From Candidatus Altimarinota bacterium (GTDB lineage Bacteria > Patescibacteriota > Gracilibacteria > BD1-5 > UBA6164): 64,000 bases of DNA. The translations under genes were made by a program, and so were the position numbers. The notes under the pieces are model-generated. The model searched no databases. It saw only the letters and a program-made list of their open reading frames with translations, and had not been told where the DNA came from. Position 1 is the stretch's first letter; each line of letters opens with the position of its first letter. Where the stretch lies: the NCBI GenBank assembly GCA_025210615.1, contig JAOARJ010000015.1:32622-96621 (forward strand), given 5' to 3'. Shown piece after piece: positions 1,026-54,694 of the stretch.

Positions 1026-1328
1026 ATGAAAAAATTTTGTATTATGAAATCTACCTACCCAAAAGAAAAAGCTGTGAGAAACAGTTTTACTTTGAAACCC
1101 AAAAACTTTAAAAAGTTATCTCAATATAAAAACAAGTCTTTACTTGTGAATAAAGCTTTAGAACTTTATTTTAGTAGAGAAAAAGCTCTTCAAGATGCTG
1201 ATGATAAATGGTTAAGAAAAACCATAAAAGAGGCTCAAGAAGAAATAGCAAGAGGAGAATATACTATTATTAATCCTAATTGATGAGATATTACTGATGA
1301 AATGTTAGAGGAAACTTTATGGAGTTAA
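1026..1328 (+). CDS. Probable RHH-type antitoxin
   Basis: 100-residue protein rich in Lys and Glu, immediately upstream of a YafQ/RelE-like toxin (29-nt gap), so very probably its antitoxin. The N-terminal half (about residues 18-45, SFTLKPKNFKKLSQY) resembles a ribbon-helix-helix DNA-binding unit, and the acidic C-terminal half would wrap the toxin. A second ATG at 1044 (MKSTYPKEK) is an equally good start. One TGA glycine codon (residue 87) must be read through to reach the TAA. Antitoxins of this type normally repress their own operon. Family assignment is inferred from size, composition and context. Confidence 0.6.
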
Positions 1329-1357
1329 GGATATTTTAGTTATTTATTATAAGTAAG

Positions 1358-1651
1358 ATGGAGTTTTGATATTCTAATAAATTTAAAAAATCTGCTAAAA
1401 AGATTTGAAAATCAAATTTAAAATATAAATTAAAAATTAACGATTGTATTAAAGATTTTCAAAAAAAATTATTTAATAGTAAATATTATAGAAAGAAATT
1501 AAAAAATTATAAAAATTGTCATTCATTAACTGTTACTTGAGATATTAGAATAGTTATTGAAATCTTAATTAAAGATAATAAATGTTATTTTCTGAATATC
1601 TGAACTCATAGTGATTTAGAAATTTCATCAGAAAAAAGAAACAAATTTTAA
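1358..1651 (+). CDS. YafQ/RelE-family mRNA interferase toxin
   Basis: 97-residue basic protein. The C-terminal half (LTVTGDIRIVIEI, then GTHSDLE) matches the RelE/YafQ fold, where a T-G-D-x-R-I-V-I strand is followed by the G-T-H-S-D-L motif; toxins of this family cleave mRNA on the ribosome. It is translated only if four TGA codons are read as Gly, including the Gly of GTHSD, so the toxin would be inert in a standard-code host. It follows the antitoxin gene and ends just before a bidirectional terminator. The residues usually catalytic in YafQ (His and Asp of HSD, upstream His of CHSL) are present. Confidence 0.75.
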
Positions 1652-1653
1652 TA

Positions 1654-1687
1654 AAAAACTCTTAAATTAATAAGAGTTTATTTTTTT
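1654..1687. terminator. Bidirectional intrinsic terminator
   Basis: Stem AAACTCTTA / TAAGAGTTT with a 6-nt loop, followed by a T-run on both strands; it separates the toxin gene from the convergent coupling-ATPase gene, whose stop codon overlaps it. Confidence 0.75.
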
Positions 1688-4194
1688 GATTTATTTTCTT
1701 CTTCTTTTGTTACGTTTACTTGAATTTTTGCTTCTTCTTCAAGTCTTTTAGCTTTTTCTTGAGCTTGTTTAGCAAGCAAGGCTTCGTGTTTTTTTTGTTT
1801 TTCTTTCTTCATTTTTTCTTTATAATCATCTCTTCTTTTTTGGAATTTTTTCTCTTGCGTTTCAATTTCTCTTAGAGAAGAGTTAATTTTATCCTCTACG
1901 AATTTCTTGCTTTTACAATATTTTTCACGACTAACTCTAAAAATTTTATCATACCTTATAGAAAATACTTCAGGGTCAAGATTTTTAGGAGGGAAAGTAT
2001 CAGCTGAAAATACCGGAGTCGGCATTCAATCTACTAATAATTTAGTATAAATAGTATATTTCCTTAAGTTTACTAAATCTTCAACTTCGACTTCTCATCA
2101 TAAAACTTCCTTTAAAATAGCTCAATCATGGTATCCAACTTGGAAAGTAACCATACTTCAAACATTTCAGAAAACAGCTCATCTTACATCTTCAGGCATT
2201 TGTTCAATATATTGATTTGCCATTACTAAATTTAGCTTATATTTACGCGCCTCTGATAAAATTGAAGCGAAAGATTCTGTCGCAAAGTTTTGGAATTCAT
2301 CTACATAAAGATAAAAATCTTTTCTGTCTTTTTCTCAGATATCCGCACGGCTCATAGCATCTATTTGGAATTTTGTAACAAGCATGGCTCATAGTAAACT
2401 AGAAGCGTCTTCTCAAATTTTTCACTTTGATAAATTAATTATCACTATTTTTTTATTATCCATTGCCCAACGCAGTCCAAATGAGTTTTTAGGTTGTCAT
2501 AAAACATTTCTAAGGATAGGACTTGATAAAAATTGTCCAACTTTATTTAGTACAGGAGCTACATATTCTGCTTGGTTTTTTGGATCCCAACTACCAAATT
2601 CGTTCACCCAGAATTTTTTTACGATAGGGTCTTTTATTTTTGCTACAACTTTTTCTCTATAAGAAGCCGTTGTTAGCATCATTGGAATTGAAATTAAAGT
2701 AGTATTAGGATATTCAAGCAATGCTAAAATTGTATTTCTCAAAATATGCTCTAATCTAGGTCACCAACTATCACCAAAAATTTTCTTAAAAATCCCTACA
2801 AGTCAAGATGCTATAAGCGGTCTATAAGCAGGTTTCACATCTTCAAGCATATTAAATGCGACAGGAAAATCAGTATCACTTGGGTCAAAAATTACTACAT
2901 CATTTGTTCTTGATTTCGGTACATTTCATAAAACTGTTTCAGCTAAATCTCAATGAGGGTCAATAACAGCGACTCATCTTCATTTATGAATATCGTCTAA
3001 AATCATATTTTCCAAAATTGTAGACTTTCACATTCAAGTTTTTCAAACGATATACATATGTCTTCTTCTGTCGTTTGGTCCTATTCAGAAGTCTAAATTA
3101 CTTCATCTAAAATTTGTTTTTCAAATAGGAGTTAAATCCTCTTGTTTGTGAAGTAATGGCAGATTAGAAGGTGGTTCAAATCATCTCGCTTGTATCCAGT
3201 TTATAGATGGAGTTTGTACATAAGAAGTAGGTAAATGAACTAATCAAGCCAACTCTACCGTATTCATAATCATTCCATCATTACAATTTCTTTCTTTGAT
3301 ATTGTTATTATTTTCAGTTATTTTATCTAGTTCTAGACTATTTACAGAAGGAACACTATAAACTCAAAGCGTAGAATAAAGCTCTTTTATGGCCATTTTT
3401 CATTCAACTTTATCATCTCATACGAATACTAAATTCATATCAACTCAATATCAAAAAGAAGCAATTTTTTCTTTAAAAAGTGTGAAATGTTCATCATTTT
3501 TTTCAAAAATATTTCATTCTCAAGTAATTTTTTCTTTACTGAGCATTATGATTTTATAGAAAAATCTAAAGATATAAATAAAAGGAGCGTATAAAAAATA
3601 CCAATTAGTTTTATGTCTAGTAAGCAGTAATTTTTTTAAAAATTTTGGATATCCTCAGAATAAAATTTTTGCTGTATGTTCATAATCTTTTTTCCAGTCT
3701 TCATCCCAAAGTGGAGAAAAATTTACTTGGAAAATATTGATACTACGTGTAGAAGCTGTATTTAAAGCAGAAGTTATAGAAGAAAAAGGGTCAATAATTC
3801 ATTTTACAGAAGAATCAGAAAAAGTTGTATAGTTTTTGATAGGGTACAAGAAATGTTTTCATTGTTTAATTTTTCACACAATAAATTTATCATCTGGCAG
3901 ATTTGCCAAATAATCTTGTACTTCTACAATTTCTACATTTGAATAATGAGCATAAATTTGATTAGTTAAGAAATTTTTATATTCTGGTGTTGTAATAAAG
4001 AAAAATCTAATTTTATTTCAAATATGAGCTATCTCAAAGGAAAAACAAGGTCTTCCTGTTGTAGCTTTTTGAAAAATAGTAGGTTTTTCATCTAAAACTT
4101 TATATAAAATTCTTAAAATATGTTCAAAGGCTAATGCTCATTTTTCATTCAGTCTATCTACAAGTATTTCTAATACGACTTTTTGCTTATTCAT
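1678..4194 (-). CDS. VirD4/TraG-like type IV coupling ATPase
   Basis: 838-residue protein. Walker A (VGKTGMGKST) lies near residue 381 and Walker B (LYVDEFQNF) near 628, with FDPSD and IDPHGD segments between them, as in the TraG/TraD/VirD4 and HerA-like DNA-pumping ATPases. The N-terminal about 370 residues contain a hydrophobic stretch (around LLLTRHKTNWYFLYAPFIYIFRFFY) that could anchor it in the membrane; the C-terminal about 60 residues form a highly charged Lys/Glu coiled coil. No relaxase or other type IV secretion gene is visible nearby, so it is an orphan; proteins of this kind are common in CPR genomes. Role (DNA transfer, DNA uptake or pilus-linked) is open. Confidence 0.8.
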
Positions 4195-40950: not shown

Positions 40951-41029
40951 GCGGGGGTAACATAAAAGAGTGAGTGTACTAAGGCTTCAACCCTTGGGTG
41001 TGCCAGTTCAAACCTGGTCCCCCGCTCCA
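40951..41029 (+). tRNA. tRNA-Gly (anticodon UCA), UGA-decoding
   Basis: 79 nt with encoded CCA. Acceptor GCGGGGG / CCCCCGC (7 bp), discriminator U, D stem ACAT / GTGT, anticodon stem TAAGG / CCTTG extended by C-G, loop CTTCAAC (anticodon TCA at 40987-40989), T arm GCCAG TTCAAAC CTGGT. G1-C72, C2-G71, G3-C70 and U73 are the known identity elements of bacterial tRNA-Gly, so the tRNA should be charged with Gly and read UGA. The D loop lacks the GG pair that normally contacts the T loop, and two nucleotides instead of one join D and anticodon stems. Its presence explains why the frames only read with TGA = Gly. Confidence 0.93.
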
Positions 41030-50762: not shown

Positions 50763-50825
50763 TTGAAAAAATGAAAAAACTATATATAGTATATTCAACT
50801 CAAAATAAAACACTAGATATTGAGT
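50763..50825 (+). promoter_or_regulatory. nrdD promoter with paired NrdR boxes
   Basis: Two 16-bp boxes matching ACACWATATATWGTGT: 50777-50792 (AAACTATATATAGTAT, 14/16) and 50810-50825 (ACACTAGATATTGAGT, 14/16), spaced 33 bp start to start. Box 1 overlaps the -10 of a plausible promoter TTGAAA (50763-50768), 16 nt, TATAGT (50785-50790), so NrdR binding would repress. nrdR itself is at 54236. Confidence 0.82.
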
Positions 50826-50853: not shown

Positions 50854-53061
50854 ATGGCCTTTTTTAAAGTAAAAAAGAGAAACTGAGCTATTGCTACATT
50901 TGATAAAGCAAGAATTGAAGACGCTATCAAAAAAGCAATTGAAGCTGCTGGATGAAAAGATTTTACAGAGGTAGAAAAAATAACAGATTTAGCAATTGAA
51001 TTAACAGAAGAAAAAGTTGGAAAAAATATTCCGGAAATAGAAGATTTACAAGATTGAGTAGAACAAGCCTTAATCAAATCAGGGCACGATTCTGTAGCGA
51101 AAGCATATATTATTTATAGACAAAAAAGAGCTGAAAGTAGACAAGATAAAAATGTAGTAATTGAAGTATGAAATACAATTGATGAATATTTAGACCAATC
51201 AGATTGGAGAGTAAAAGCTAATTCAAACATCTGATACTCACTATGAGGATTAATTCTAAATATTTCTGGTAAAGTTACAGCTAACTATTGGTTAAGCCAC
51301 GTTTATACTCCAGAAATCGGAAACTTACATAGAAACGGTGATTATCATATCCATGATCTTGATATGCTATGTGGATATTGTGCTGGTTGGAGTCTTAGAC
51401 AACTTCTTGAAGAAGGATTCAACTGAGTAGCTAATAAAATAGAATCAACTCCACCTAACAATTTGCAATCGGCTGTAAATCAAATGATTAACTTTTTATG
51501 AACACTTCAAAATGAATGGGCTTGAGCTCAAGCTTTCTCATCTTTTGATACATATCTTGCGCCATTTGTTCATAAAAAAAGAGAAGAAATTAGAGAAGAA
51601 TTAGAAGAATTTGGAGCAAAATTTGATAGTAATGAAGCGAAAGAAAAATATATTTATGATAAAACTTATAAATATGTGCTTCAACAAATGCAAAATTTTG
51701 TATTTGGTATGAACACTCCTTCAAGATGGGGTACACAGACACCATTTACAAATATAACATTAGACTGGACTTGTCCAGATGATTTGAAAGACAAAGCATT
51801 ATTTATGGGTTGAATAAATAAATGAGAATATAAAGCGAAATATGGAGATTTAGAAGAAGAAATGAGATTATTAAATAAAGCATTAGTAGAAGTATACGTA
51901 AATTGAGATTCTAAGTGAAGAGTATTTACTTTCCCAATTCCTACTTACAATATCACTGAAGATTTCCCATGGGATGATCCAGATTTAGACGGAGTATTTG
52001 AAATGACTGCTAAATATTGAATCCCATATTTCCAAAATTTCGTAGGGTCTCAATTTAAGAGAGAAAGACAACCTGATGGAAGTATAAAGAAAGTACCAAA
52101 TCCTGATGCTTATACTCCTGGAGCGGTTAGAAGTATGTGTTGTAGGTTACAACTAGACTTGACCCAATTAGAAAAAAGATGAAACGGTTTATTCGGTTCG
52201 GCTGAAATGACAGGTTCTATCTGAGTAGTAACTATTAATATGGCTAGAATTTGATATACTAATAAATGAGATAAATCAGCCTTTAAAGATAGAGTTAAAT
52301 ATCTAATGGATATGTCAAAAACTTCTTTAGAGATGAAGAGAAAAGAAATTATTACTCATTTAGAAAGTGGACTTTATCCTTATACAAAGAGATATTTAGG
52401 ACACTTTAGAAATCATTTTTCTACTATCTGATTAAACTGAATGAATGAAGCTATTATAAATTTCACAGATTGAAAAGAAGATATTACGACGCAGTGGGGT
52501 AAGAAATTCTCACTTGAAATTATGGAATATATGAGAGAAATTCTTAAAGATTATCAAGAAGAAACAGGGAATTTATATAATCTAGAAGCAACTCCAGCTG
52601 AAGGTACTACATATAGATTTGCTAGAGAGGATAAAAAACAATTACCTGGTATTATCCAAGCTGGTACAAATGATGCTCCATATTATACAAATTCAACTCA
52701 ACTTCCTGTTGATTTCACTGATGATGTATTTGAAGCATTAGAATACCAAAATGAGCTTCAATGTAAATATACTGGTTGAACAGTATTTCACGTATATTTA
52801 TGAGAAAGAGTATCAGATATTGAGTCTACAAAAGCGTTAATTAAGAAAACTTTATGACAATATCAACTTCCTTATATAACACTTTCTCCAACATTCTCAA
52901 TTTGTCCTAAACATGGATATATTATTTGAGAACATGATTATTGTCCAATTTGTGATGGAGAAATTGGTTATACTTGAGAAAAATTTGATATGCAAACAAG
53001 AGATAAATATACAGCGAATGATAAAAAAATGAAAGAATTTGAGGAAATAAAAATAGATTAA
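50854..53061 (+). CDS. nrdD: Anaerobic (class III) ribonucleoside-triphosphate reductase, large part lacking the glycyl-radical motif
   Basis: 735 residues. ATP-cone (residues 1-90, VKKRNGAIATFDKARIEDAI), ten-stranded barrel with RSMCCRLQLD (thiyl Cys site, about residue 430), and NGNLYNLEATPAEGT, RFAREDKK, TNDAPYYTNSTQLPV near 560-610, all NrdD blocks. The Zn motif is CPKHGY...CPIC (about 684 and 699). Other NrdDs continue with E-V-Y-S-R-V-x-G-Y-Y-R-P; here the end reads DGEIGYTGEKFDMQ and stops after about 30 charged residues, without R-V-x-G-Y. That domain is encoded separately at 53315-53482. Makes deoxynucleotides from NTPs under anoxia. Confidence 0.95.
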
Positions 53062-53087
53062 TTAGTTTAATTTTAAGTATAGGTGTG

Positions 53088-53151
53088 GAGGTTTTGTCAT
53101 CGCTTCACTAAGAACAAAACCTCAGGGTGCGGCGCGCAAAGCGCGCCGCAC
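53088..53151 (+). repeat. GC-rich double-hairpin element 4 (after nrdD)
   Basis: Hairpin 1: GAGGTTTTGT (53088-53097) / ACAAAACCTC (53114-53123), loop 16 nt. Hairpin 2: GTGCGGCGCGC / GCGCGCCGCAC around AAA (53127-53151), a perfect 11-bp stem. Starts 26 nt after the nrdD stop with GTGTGGAGG, close to the GYGGAG lead of the other elements. Separates the two nrd transcripts and may terminate or protect the nrdD mRNA. Confidence 0.7.
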
Positions 53152-53216
53152 TATAAATTAAAACTTCCTTATATAATACGAAGAAATAAAGTCAATATAG
53201 AAAGATGAAATAAAAT

Positions 53217-53272
53217 TTGCAAAATACAATATATTGTGGTAATATATTATCGTTATATACTATATAAGGTAT
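53217..53272 (+). promoter_or_regulatory. Promoter with paired NrdR boxes before the glycyl-radical subunit
   Basis: Boxes 53224-53239 (ATACAATATATTGTGG, 14/16 to ACACWATATATWGTGT) and 53257-53272 (ATACTATATAAGGTAT, 12/16), spaced 33 bp as in front of nrdD. Promoter candidates are TTGCAA (53217-53222), 17 nt, TAATAT (53240-53245), or TTGTGG (53234-53239), 16 nt, TATACT (53256-53261). The boxes cover the promoter either way. Confidence 0.78.
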
Positions 53273-53314
53273 ATTACAGAAAATAAAAATTATTATTTAT
53301 TAACTATAATTATT

Positions 53315-53482
53315 ATGAATGCAGCAAATGTAAACAGACAAAAATGTGAAATTTATACTAGAGTAATGGGTTATTATAGACCTGTAAGTCAATTTAATAT
53401 CGGTAAAAAATCAGAATTTTACTCTAGAGATTGTTTTACACAAAGTACAAATTCTAGTTTTAATGATGAATTTGGTGAATAA
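53315..53482 (+). CDS. Detached glycyl-radical domain of class III ribonucleotide reductase
   Basis: 55 residues, KCEIYTRVMGYYRPVSQFN at residues 10-28, which matches the C-terminal glycyl-radical segment of NrdD (E-[VI]-Y-S-R-V-x-G-Y-Y-R-P-V), including R16, V17, radical Gly19 (GGT) and Y20, followed by N-x-G-K-[KS]-E-F-x-x-R. Fusion at the end of the large NrdD would complete that protein. It begins its own NrdR-controlled operon with nrdG (24-nt gap) and nrdR. Analogous in principle to YfiD, the spare radical domain of pyruvate formate-lyase. Whether it binds NrdD in trans is inference. Confidence 0.88.
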   Translation: MNAANVNRQKCEIYTRVMGYYRPVSQFNIGKKSEFYSRDCFTQSTNSSFNDEFGE

Positions 53483-53506: not shown

Positions 53507-54214
53507 ATGCAAATATCTTGAATTAAAAAAAGTACATTATTAGACTTCCCGGGTAAAGTTGCTACAATTATCTTTACTCCGGGATGTAATTTTAGATGTA
53601 GGTTTTGTCATAATAGTGAGTTTGTTCTTCCTGAAAAAATGAAAGAAAATAAAGTTTTTGAAGATTTAATTAGTGAGAAAGCATTTTTTAATTTTTTAGA
53701 AAGCAGAATTGGATTACTTGATGGTGTTGTGATCTGTTGATGAGAACCAACACTTCAAAAAGATTTATATGATTTTGCTAAAAAGATAAAGCAAATGTGA
53801 TTTTTAGTAAAACTTGATACAAATTGAAGAGATCCTGAGATAGTTCAAAAATTGATAAATGATAAAATTATTGATTTTGTTGCGATGGATATGAAGATGC
53901 CTTTTTCAAGATTTACAGAGCTTATTTGAATAGAAGAAAAAGTAGATAATTATAAAAAAACAGCTGAAATTTTATTAAATTCTAATATAGATTATGAGTT
54001 TAGAACAACTGTTATAAAAAATTATCACGACAAAGAAACTATAGAAGAAATAGCGAAAGATATAGAGGGAGCGAAGAATTATCATTTACAAAATTTTATC
54101 TGATGAAATACGCTAGAACCTGACTTTGACTGAGCTACTTTTTCAAAACCAGAGCTAAAAGAATTTATGGAAGTCGCTAAACCTTATGTTCAAAAATGTA
54201 CTATTAGAACATAA
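53507..54214 (+). CDS. nrdG: NrdG-type radical SAM activating enzyme
   Basis: 235 residues. The radical-SAM cluster motif reads PGCNFRCRFCHN (CxxxCxxC, about residue 25-33), followed by GGEPTLQKDLYDF and KLDTNGRDPE. It would install the radical on the Gly19 of the small subunit 24 nt upstream. Distinguished from PflA by operon context and by its N-terminal GIKKSTLLDFPGKVATIIFTPGC start, typical of anaerobic-RNR-type activases. Normal length for this subgroup. Confidence 0.92.
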
Positions 54215-54235: not shown

Positions 54236-54694
54236 ATGTATTGTTTAAAATGTAAAAATCCTGATACAAAAGTAATCGATTCTAGGGTTACTGATGATGG
54301 GAAATCAATAAGAAGAAGAAGAGAATGTGAAAAATGTGGAAGCAGATTTACAACATTTGAAAAAATGGAATTTACGAATTTTTTGGTGAGTAAATCGGAC
54401 GGAAATAAGGAATTATATGATAGAGAAAAAGTGAAAAAAAGTATTTATCTGACTTGTAATAAAAGGGATATAGACCCTGAAATTATAGATACAATGATAA
54501 GCGATTTAGAGTCGCAGTGGTGAGGGAATAAAAAAGGTGTGACTAGTAAGAGAATTTGAAAAGATATTTTATGTGAACTAAAAAAAATAGATAAGGTGGC
54601 TTTTATAAGGTATGCATCTGTCTATCATAACTTTGAAACTCCTGAGGATTTTGTAGAATTTATAAATGAAAATAAAAATACTTCTTGTAAATAA
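54236..54694 (+). CDS. nrdR: Transcriptional repressor NrdR
   Basis: 152 residues. N-terminal Zn ribbon (MYCLKCKNPDTKVIDSR...RRRRECEKCGSRFTTFE, four Cys) and ATP-cone (KSDGNKELYDREKVKKSIYLTCNKRDIDPEIID). NrdR represses ribonucleotide-reductase genes when dATP is plentiful by binding paired boxes; such boxes lie before nrdD and before the operon that contains this gene, so it appears autoregulated. Twenty-one nt after nrdG. Its stop overlaps a terminator. Confidence 0.96.

Follow-up and report, generated by a model that had tools for sequence, protein, structure and literature searches.

A class III ribonucleotide reductase encoded as two genes in a Candidatus Altimarinota bacterium, with a predicted stand-alone glycyl-radical protein

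Anaerobic class III ribonucleotide reductases are composed of the catalytic protein NrdD and its radical-SAM activase NrdG. The comparison set used here is made up of the ordinary enzymes of P. copri (8p23), S. thermophilus (9d3x), T. maritima (4u3e), and phage T4 (1h78). The locus described here lies in a 64,000-nucleotide stretch of contig JAOARJ010000015.1 of a Candidatus Altimarinota bacterium (the window) and consists of nrdD and a small gene downstream of it. Common to this locus and ordinary NrdD are the ATP-cone (where present), the barrel, the finger-loop cysteines, the zinc knuckle, the radical motif, NrdG, and the predicted fold. The locus departs from ordinary NrdD in placing the radical motif on another, separately encoded protein, and the cut lies directly after the last CPxC of the zinc knuckle. 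The P. copri chain 8p2s_A was rejected as proof of a short large subunit, being modelled to about residue 675 only (550 residues), and 4u3e_B was used.

YfiD/GrcA and T4 Y06I are small stand-alone radical domains that complete a large enzyme in trans, a role that is predicted for the small protein here. They are of the pyruvate formate-lyase (PFL) type and replace the damaged domain of a fused enzyme, whereas the domain here is of the NrdD type and its large subunit has no such domain. These two are described as the sole validated spare parts, and spares for other enzymes are a matter of speculation (PMC8683613). NrdJa/NrdJb of Pseudomonas aeruginosa is likewise a reductase in two chains, but belongs to class II and uses adenosylcobalamin; NrdJb has an IscU-like and a zinc-finger domain and no radical domain (PMC9669993). 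In phages phiAS4 and 949, nrdD is likewise in pieces. These are single phages in which the gene is interrupted by an intron or fragmented without a known cause, and a conserved stand-alone radical domain is not described (PMC3653736). Searches of one open-access library, which does not cover subscription papers, turned up no description of a cellular class III reductase divided in this way. To our knowledge, the enzyme described here would, if working as proposed, be the first glycyl-radical enzyme with a radical domain that is permanently a separate subunit.

Two complementary parts of NrdD

The window encodes, with a probability of about 90%, a class III reductase as two genes, of which the small one specifies a 55-residue protein predicted to get its radical from NrdG and to dock into the NrdD barrel. 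A first-pass annotation of the sequence had placed both open reading frames (ORFs) correctly (Table 1) and had described the larger as an NrdD with ATP-cone, barrel, and zinc motif that ends without R-V-x-G-Y. Pfam bears this out. The ATP-cone (PF03477) spans residues 5-93 and the NRDD barrel (PF13597) residues 123-701, covering profile positions 2-528 of 562 at 553.8 bits (cut-off 26.2). The zinc-knuckle residues C684, H687, C697, and C700 (CPKH...CPIC) form the last conserved stretch. The protein ends 35 residues past C700, the last cysteine of the knuckle, and the motif is absent. The active-site cysteines C176, C429, and C430 are invariant across 36 aligned rows, fused NrdDs among them.

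The nrdD frame is uninterrupted solely when TGA is read as glycine (NCBI table 25), and 26 TGA codons lie inside it. A tRNA with a UCA anticodon at 40951-41029, labelled 'SeC' by ARAGORN, is presumably a glycine tRNA that decodes TGA, which fits such a genome.

The 55-residue protein covers PF13597 positions 530-560 alone (30.7 bits, same cut-off), and alignment to NrdD, proposed in the first-pass annotation, gives two complementary profile halves. The claim that the radical glycine is on a polypeptide of its own holds. The predicted radical residue is G19 (codon 53369-53371), within KCEIYTRVMGYYRPV, and the conserved part of the protein starts RQKCEIYTRVMGYYRPV. In fused enzymes, the zinc knuckle runs straight into the radical motif, e.g., CPTCDAECEVWSRIMGYHRPV in the patescibacterial locus L081. 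Pfam at E <=0.001 gives PF13597 alone, and the PFL-type Gly_radical domain (PF01228) was not found in the small protein. A PDB sequence search with it gave nothing up to E 1. Database proteins of similar length that match it number 278; among the matches listed, small halves are annotated 'hypothetical protein' or 'anaerobic ribonucleoside-triphosphate reductase'.

The large protein has the barrel, the cysteines, and the NrdG partner expected of class III and lacks a glycyl-radical motif in the same polypeptide. Because the motif is on a separate ORF, we class the locus as a two-protein variant and not as an ordinary NrdD.

Recurrence of the split

Sixty genomes, made up of the window's and its relatives, were searched. 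NrdD matches at E 0 in 33 and partially in 1; the rest have mostly ATP-cone-only matches, with 3 lacking any match, and the enzyme is therefore not in every relative. The radical motif is in a separate ORF in all 30 nrdD loci read (L005-L034; 29 relatives and the window), and a NrdG-type CxxxCxxC follows within 1.5 kb downstream in 26 of them, while the other 4 loci end about 1.2-1.3 kb downstream. The search of related genomes suggested in the first-pass annotation thus found the split again, with a continuous NrdD in 0 of 29 related loci.

In the class, the domain is present in 100 of 353 genomes, and the longest open frame around it is at most 249 aa. A phylum sample gave the domain in 77 of 379 genomes, 43 with short frames only, 33 fused (frames >=350 aa), and 1 unresolved. 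Among the best 80 of 575 loci in named genomes, most are fused. Short frames were found there in Dojkabacteria (L086, L094, L114), Halanaerobium saccharolyticum (L105), Bipolaricaulota (L106, L149), Thermoplasmatota (L104), Woesearchaeota (L131), and Micrarchaeota (L154). Within the phylum-level group to which the Halanaerobium genome belongs, 5 of 67 matching genomes are clearly short and 1 is unresolved (199 searched); in that of a Bipolaricaulota genome, 20 of 65 are clearly short (100 searched). From these and two further scans, the latter with weak matches mixed in, 41 further short-frame genomes were hand-picked. All 41 have the large half, ending at profile 521-534, and the small half mostly begins at 519-533; four rows that cover profile 1-562 hold stop codons. 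The idea that the split is unique to this genome was overturned, since it is also found in other Patescibacteria, Bipolaricaulota, Halanaerobium, Thermoplasmatota, and Woesearchaeota.

Other arrangements were also seen. One candidate split, L066 (G431), was rejected, as it holds two fused paralogues instead. Three patescibacterial genomes (G712-G714; L095, L096, L097) have another split point, at profile position about 436, with the halves on different contigs. Their C-terminal part is in a frame of 154-170 aa, and a PF02867 reductase was not found there. In five genomes (G891, G918, G1310, G1345, G1373), the pieces of the NRDD profile are widely separated inside frames of 1009-1574 aa, which looks like interruption by inteins.

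A FastTree tree was built from 151 barrel cores (83 split, 68 fused) of author-chosen loci, with fused forms under-sampled. It leaves out 23 loci without a core and one short core, has the labels of L199 and L209 set by hand, and has long branches at L098/L168 and L114. The fused/split label needs at least 16 changes on this tree, 9 of them imposed by starred branches; the mean for shuffled labels is 49.6. A single origin of the split was rejected on this count, with the sampling bias noted. The window's clade (32 split rows) is sister to the fused Patescibacteria L081-L083, and the thermoplasmatotal split L104 is nested among fused relatives.

Four loci (L065, L067, L117, L161) possess, beside a full NrdD, an additional gene for the domain whose N-terminal part holds CxxC...CxxC, and two (L068, L132) pair a truncated NrdD with a small protein of this kind. 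These arrangements are plausible intermediate states. Desulfobacterales and a related symbiont supply four genomes (G698, G699, G706, G708) with a fused NrdD and the extra domain on another contig. In these four and in the four loci with a full NrdD, the extra domain, with its CxxC...CxxC N-terminus, is a candidate reductase spare part. L067, near 2266 (G277, same class as the window), also has one in-frame TAG in its fused NrdD, a sequencing error or recent damage.

Stand-alone domains are also found on viral contigs. In the best 80 of 550 relatives found (L210-L289), the domain is in an ORF of <220 aa in 66, e.g., L278:3815-4135 and L211:3986-4126, and some carry an N-terminal zinc-ribbon-like part. 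From these 66, 50 contigs were drawn by dropping near-copies and a few others; in 50 of 50 the domain is alone with no other NRDD match, although the contigs may be fragments and a host NrdD would lie off the contig. Among 20 neighbour proteins chosen from 6 contigs, unmistakable phage proteins (terminase, tail fibre, UvsX, endolysin) were found on 4 of the 6. The neighbours in L255 are an exonuclease and a methyltransferase only, and those in L265 a family of unknown function only. Among 50,697 annotated phage records, 2 match the 55-residue protein at E <=0.01, one of them annotated as the reductase itself, so the viral evidence comes from metagenomic contigs. A phage match to 'NrdD' may be the stand-alone domain only, a point of caution for annotation.

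Proposed mechanism and competing explanations

In the proposed mechanism, NrdG2 would abstract a hydrogen from the small protein at G19, and the small protein would insert its glycine loop beside the NrdD finger loop (C429/C430). The radical would move to a cysteine, and triphosphate reduction would proceed as in ordinary NrdD. Oxygen cleaves glycyl-radical enzymes at the radical glycine. Because the cut falls there, oxygen damage would hit the disposable 55-residue part and spare the 735-residue catalyst. NrdR would repress both genes via the box pair at each.

If true, this would be the first two-protein class III reductase, with an oxygen-sensitive part that docks from outside and could be replaceable. 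Spare-part radical proteins beyond pyruvate formate-lyase would become a testable question. A cultured Halanaerobium with the split would offer a tractable system for following radical installation, docking, and exchange one by one. A broader idea, for which we see slightly less than an even chance, is that the domain is an exchangeable class III radical cartridge. It would serve as part of a permanent two-protein enzyme, as a zinc-ribbon-tagged spare beside a fused NrdD, or, when phage-borne, to recharge or take over the host reductase.

The best-surviving alternative, itself improbable, is that the small protein is a mere spare part of the YfiD kind and that the large subunit uses another radical source. 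The four loci and four genomes with a fused NrdD and an extra domain lend this some support. The window's large subunit, however, has no radical domain, so that the small one is needed unless there is an unknown radical source, and NrdG2 is present.

Slightly less probable still is a joining of the two ORFs into one polypeptide by an intron, a split intein, a frameshift, or ribosomal bypass. Phage nrdD genes split by introns and inteins exist (PMC3653736). Against this, the gap between the halves is 13-319 nt in 29 of the 30 close loci, many relatives have gaps of <50 nt, which is too short for an intron, and all three relative frames are found (5, 14, and 10 cases). The small gene was taken to start at the last Met before the motif in these measurements, and L008, missed by the zinc pattern, is the locus without a value. 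The Halanaerobium locus runs from nrdD (1111-3171) through nrdG (3172-3870) to the small gene (open frame 3962-4141); nrdG is also between the halves in L166 and L167. Genome G697 has two small genes, one of them about 178 kb away from nrdD on the same contig. At least in these cases, the domain must be a polypeptide of its own. Short gaps, mixed frames, and the intervening nrdG led us to reject the intron, intein, and bypass.

The weakest alternative, a broken nrdD (pseudogene, sequencing error, or assembly gap) with the second ORF as its decaying tail, could draw on the single metagenome-assembled genome, insufficient alone to exclude it, and on the repeated double-hairpin element in the gap, but it is dismissed by the identical split in 29 of 29 relatives (gap measured in 28, in all three frames) and 41 of 41 further genomes, by the sequence constraint on the small gene, and by the failure to find another reductase in the genome.

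The small gene is under sequence constraint, with mean nonsynonymous (pN) and synonymous (pS) values of 0.12 and 0.85 (406 pairs, 29 loci, 31 codons) and of 0.09 and 0.49 in the 116 pairs with pS <0.6. The two-gene reading has its own weak points, and the following weigh against it. In the constraint estimate, pN is lowered by a codon-finding pattern that fixes many residues, and pS is close to saturation. The small ORF is a predicted gene, and a sigma-70 promoter ahead of it was not found on the + strand. The tail of the large NrdD is modelled at low confidence (44-62) in the predicted fold. The complex was modelled as one chain, with the stop codon read as Gln and fused homologues in the alignment, and is therefore no independent test of docking. 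For the small part, the model reaches moderate confidence, with means of 56, 83, 74, 75, and 55 in blocks of ten residues, and the alignment ranges state just the first and last residue. It is also conceivable that the window's genome has a divergent second reductase, PF02867 being a weak profile for monomeric class II enzymes: a real Halanaerobium enzyme scores 33.8 bits.

On present results, the split pair is the sole NrdD form in the window's genome, one of 35 examined, and a PF02867 search found no class I or II reductase there. PF02867 has no match in 18 of the 35, of which 11 are standard-split, and others, among them G007, G017, G036, G103, and G266, hold split NrdD and a PF02867 reductase together. 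The pair is not the sole reductase in Halanaerobium, where a B12-dependent class II enzyme is present (TIGR02505, 390 bits).

The gap and the NrdR-box-like sites

The region is made up of nrdD, the small gene, nrdG, and nrdR (Table 1). The nrdG product scores 203.1 bits with TIGR02495 (cut-off 131.15), and the nrdR product 150 bits with TIGR00244 (cut-off 124.65).

Table 1. Features of the nrd region, in window coordinates
Feature	Coordinates	Strand	Description
nrdD, large subunit	50854..53061	+	735 aa, code 25; ATP-cone, barrel, zinc knuckle; based on translation, Pfam, and predicted fold
Stand-alone glycyl-radical domain gene	53315..53482	+	55 aa; PF13597 match, motif in separate ORF
nrdG, radical-SAM activase, NrdG2 type	53507..54214	+	235 aa, CNFRCRFCHN; PF04055
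nrdR, transcriptional repressor of ribonucleotide reductase genes	54236..54694	+	152 aa; Zn_ribbon_NrdR and ATP-cone
NrdR-box-like pair upstream of nrdD	50777-50792 and 50810-50825	+	each 14/16 against consensus
NrdR-box-like pair upstream of small gene	53224-53239 and 53257-53272	+	14/16 and 12/16; consensus scoring
Two adjacent perfect hairpins	53088-53123 and 53127-53151	+	10-bp and 11-bp stems, between genes

All 16-mers of the window were scored against the NrdR consensus ACACWATATATWGTGT. The top three single sites start at 50777, 50810, and 53224, all at 14/16. A 12/16 site is commonplace alone; there are 18 in the window, that at 53257 among them. Scanning for pairs by raw match counts (score sum >=24, starts 28-36 bp apart) gave matches solely at the two nrd places, and the best pair at each is 33 bp start-to-start (17-bp spacer). 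NrdR proteins bind boxes separated by 14-17 bp spacers (PMC12051234). Among the 29 loci scanned, window included, 21 have such a pair 5' of nrdD and one, the window, has a pair before the small gene. This points to a transcript shared by nrdD and the small gene as the likely state in most relatives, while in the window the small gene, nrdG, and nrdR likely have their own NrdR-controlled start beyond the two hairpins.

The first-pass annotation had reported a 253-nt gap between nrdD and the small gene with a hairpin element and a second promoter. The gap and the hairpins stand; the promoter does not, since no sigma-70-type promoter was detected on the + strand and the NrdR-box-like pair is found instead. 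A structured RNA in the gap was also rejected, Rfam giving a single sub-threshold match at 20.3 bits against a gathering score of 57.

A similar double hairpin is found elsewhere in the genome (L002, about 1465-1525), with a variable stem followed by GGCGCGC-NNN-GCGCGCC. The element was found in two places in the genome, the G+C content of the window being 27%, and is perhaps a dispersed repeat.
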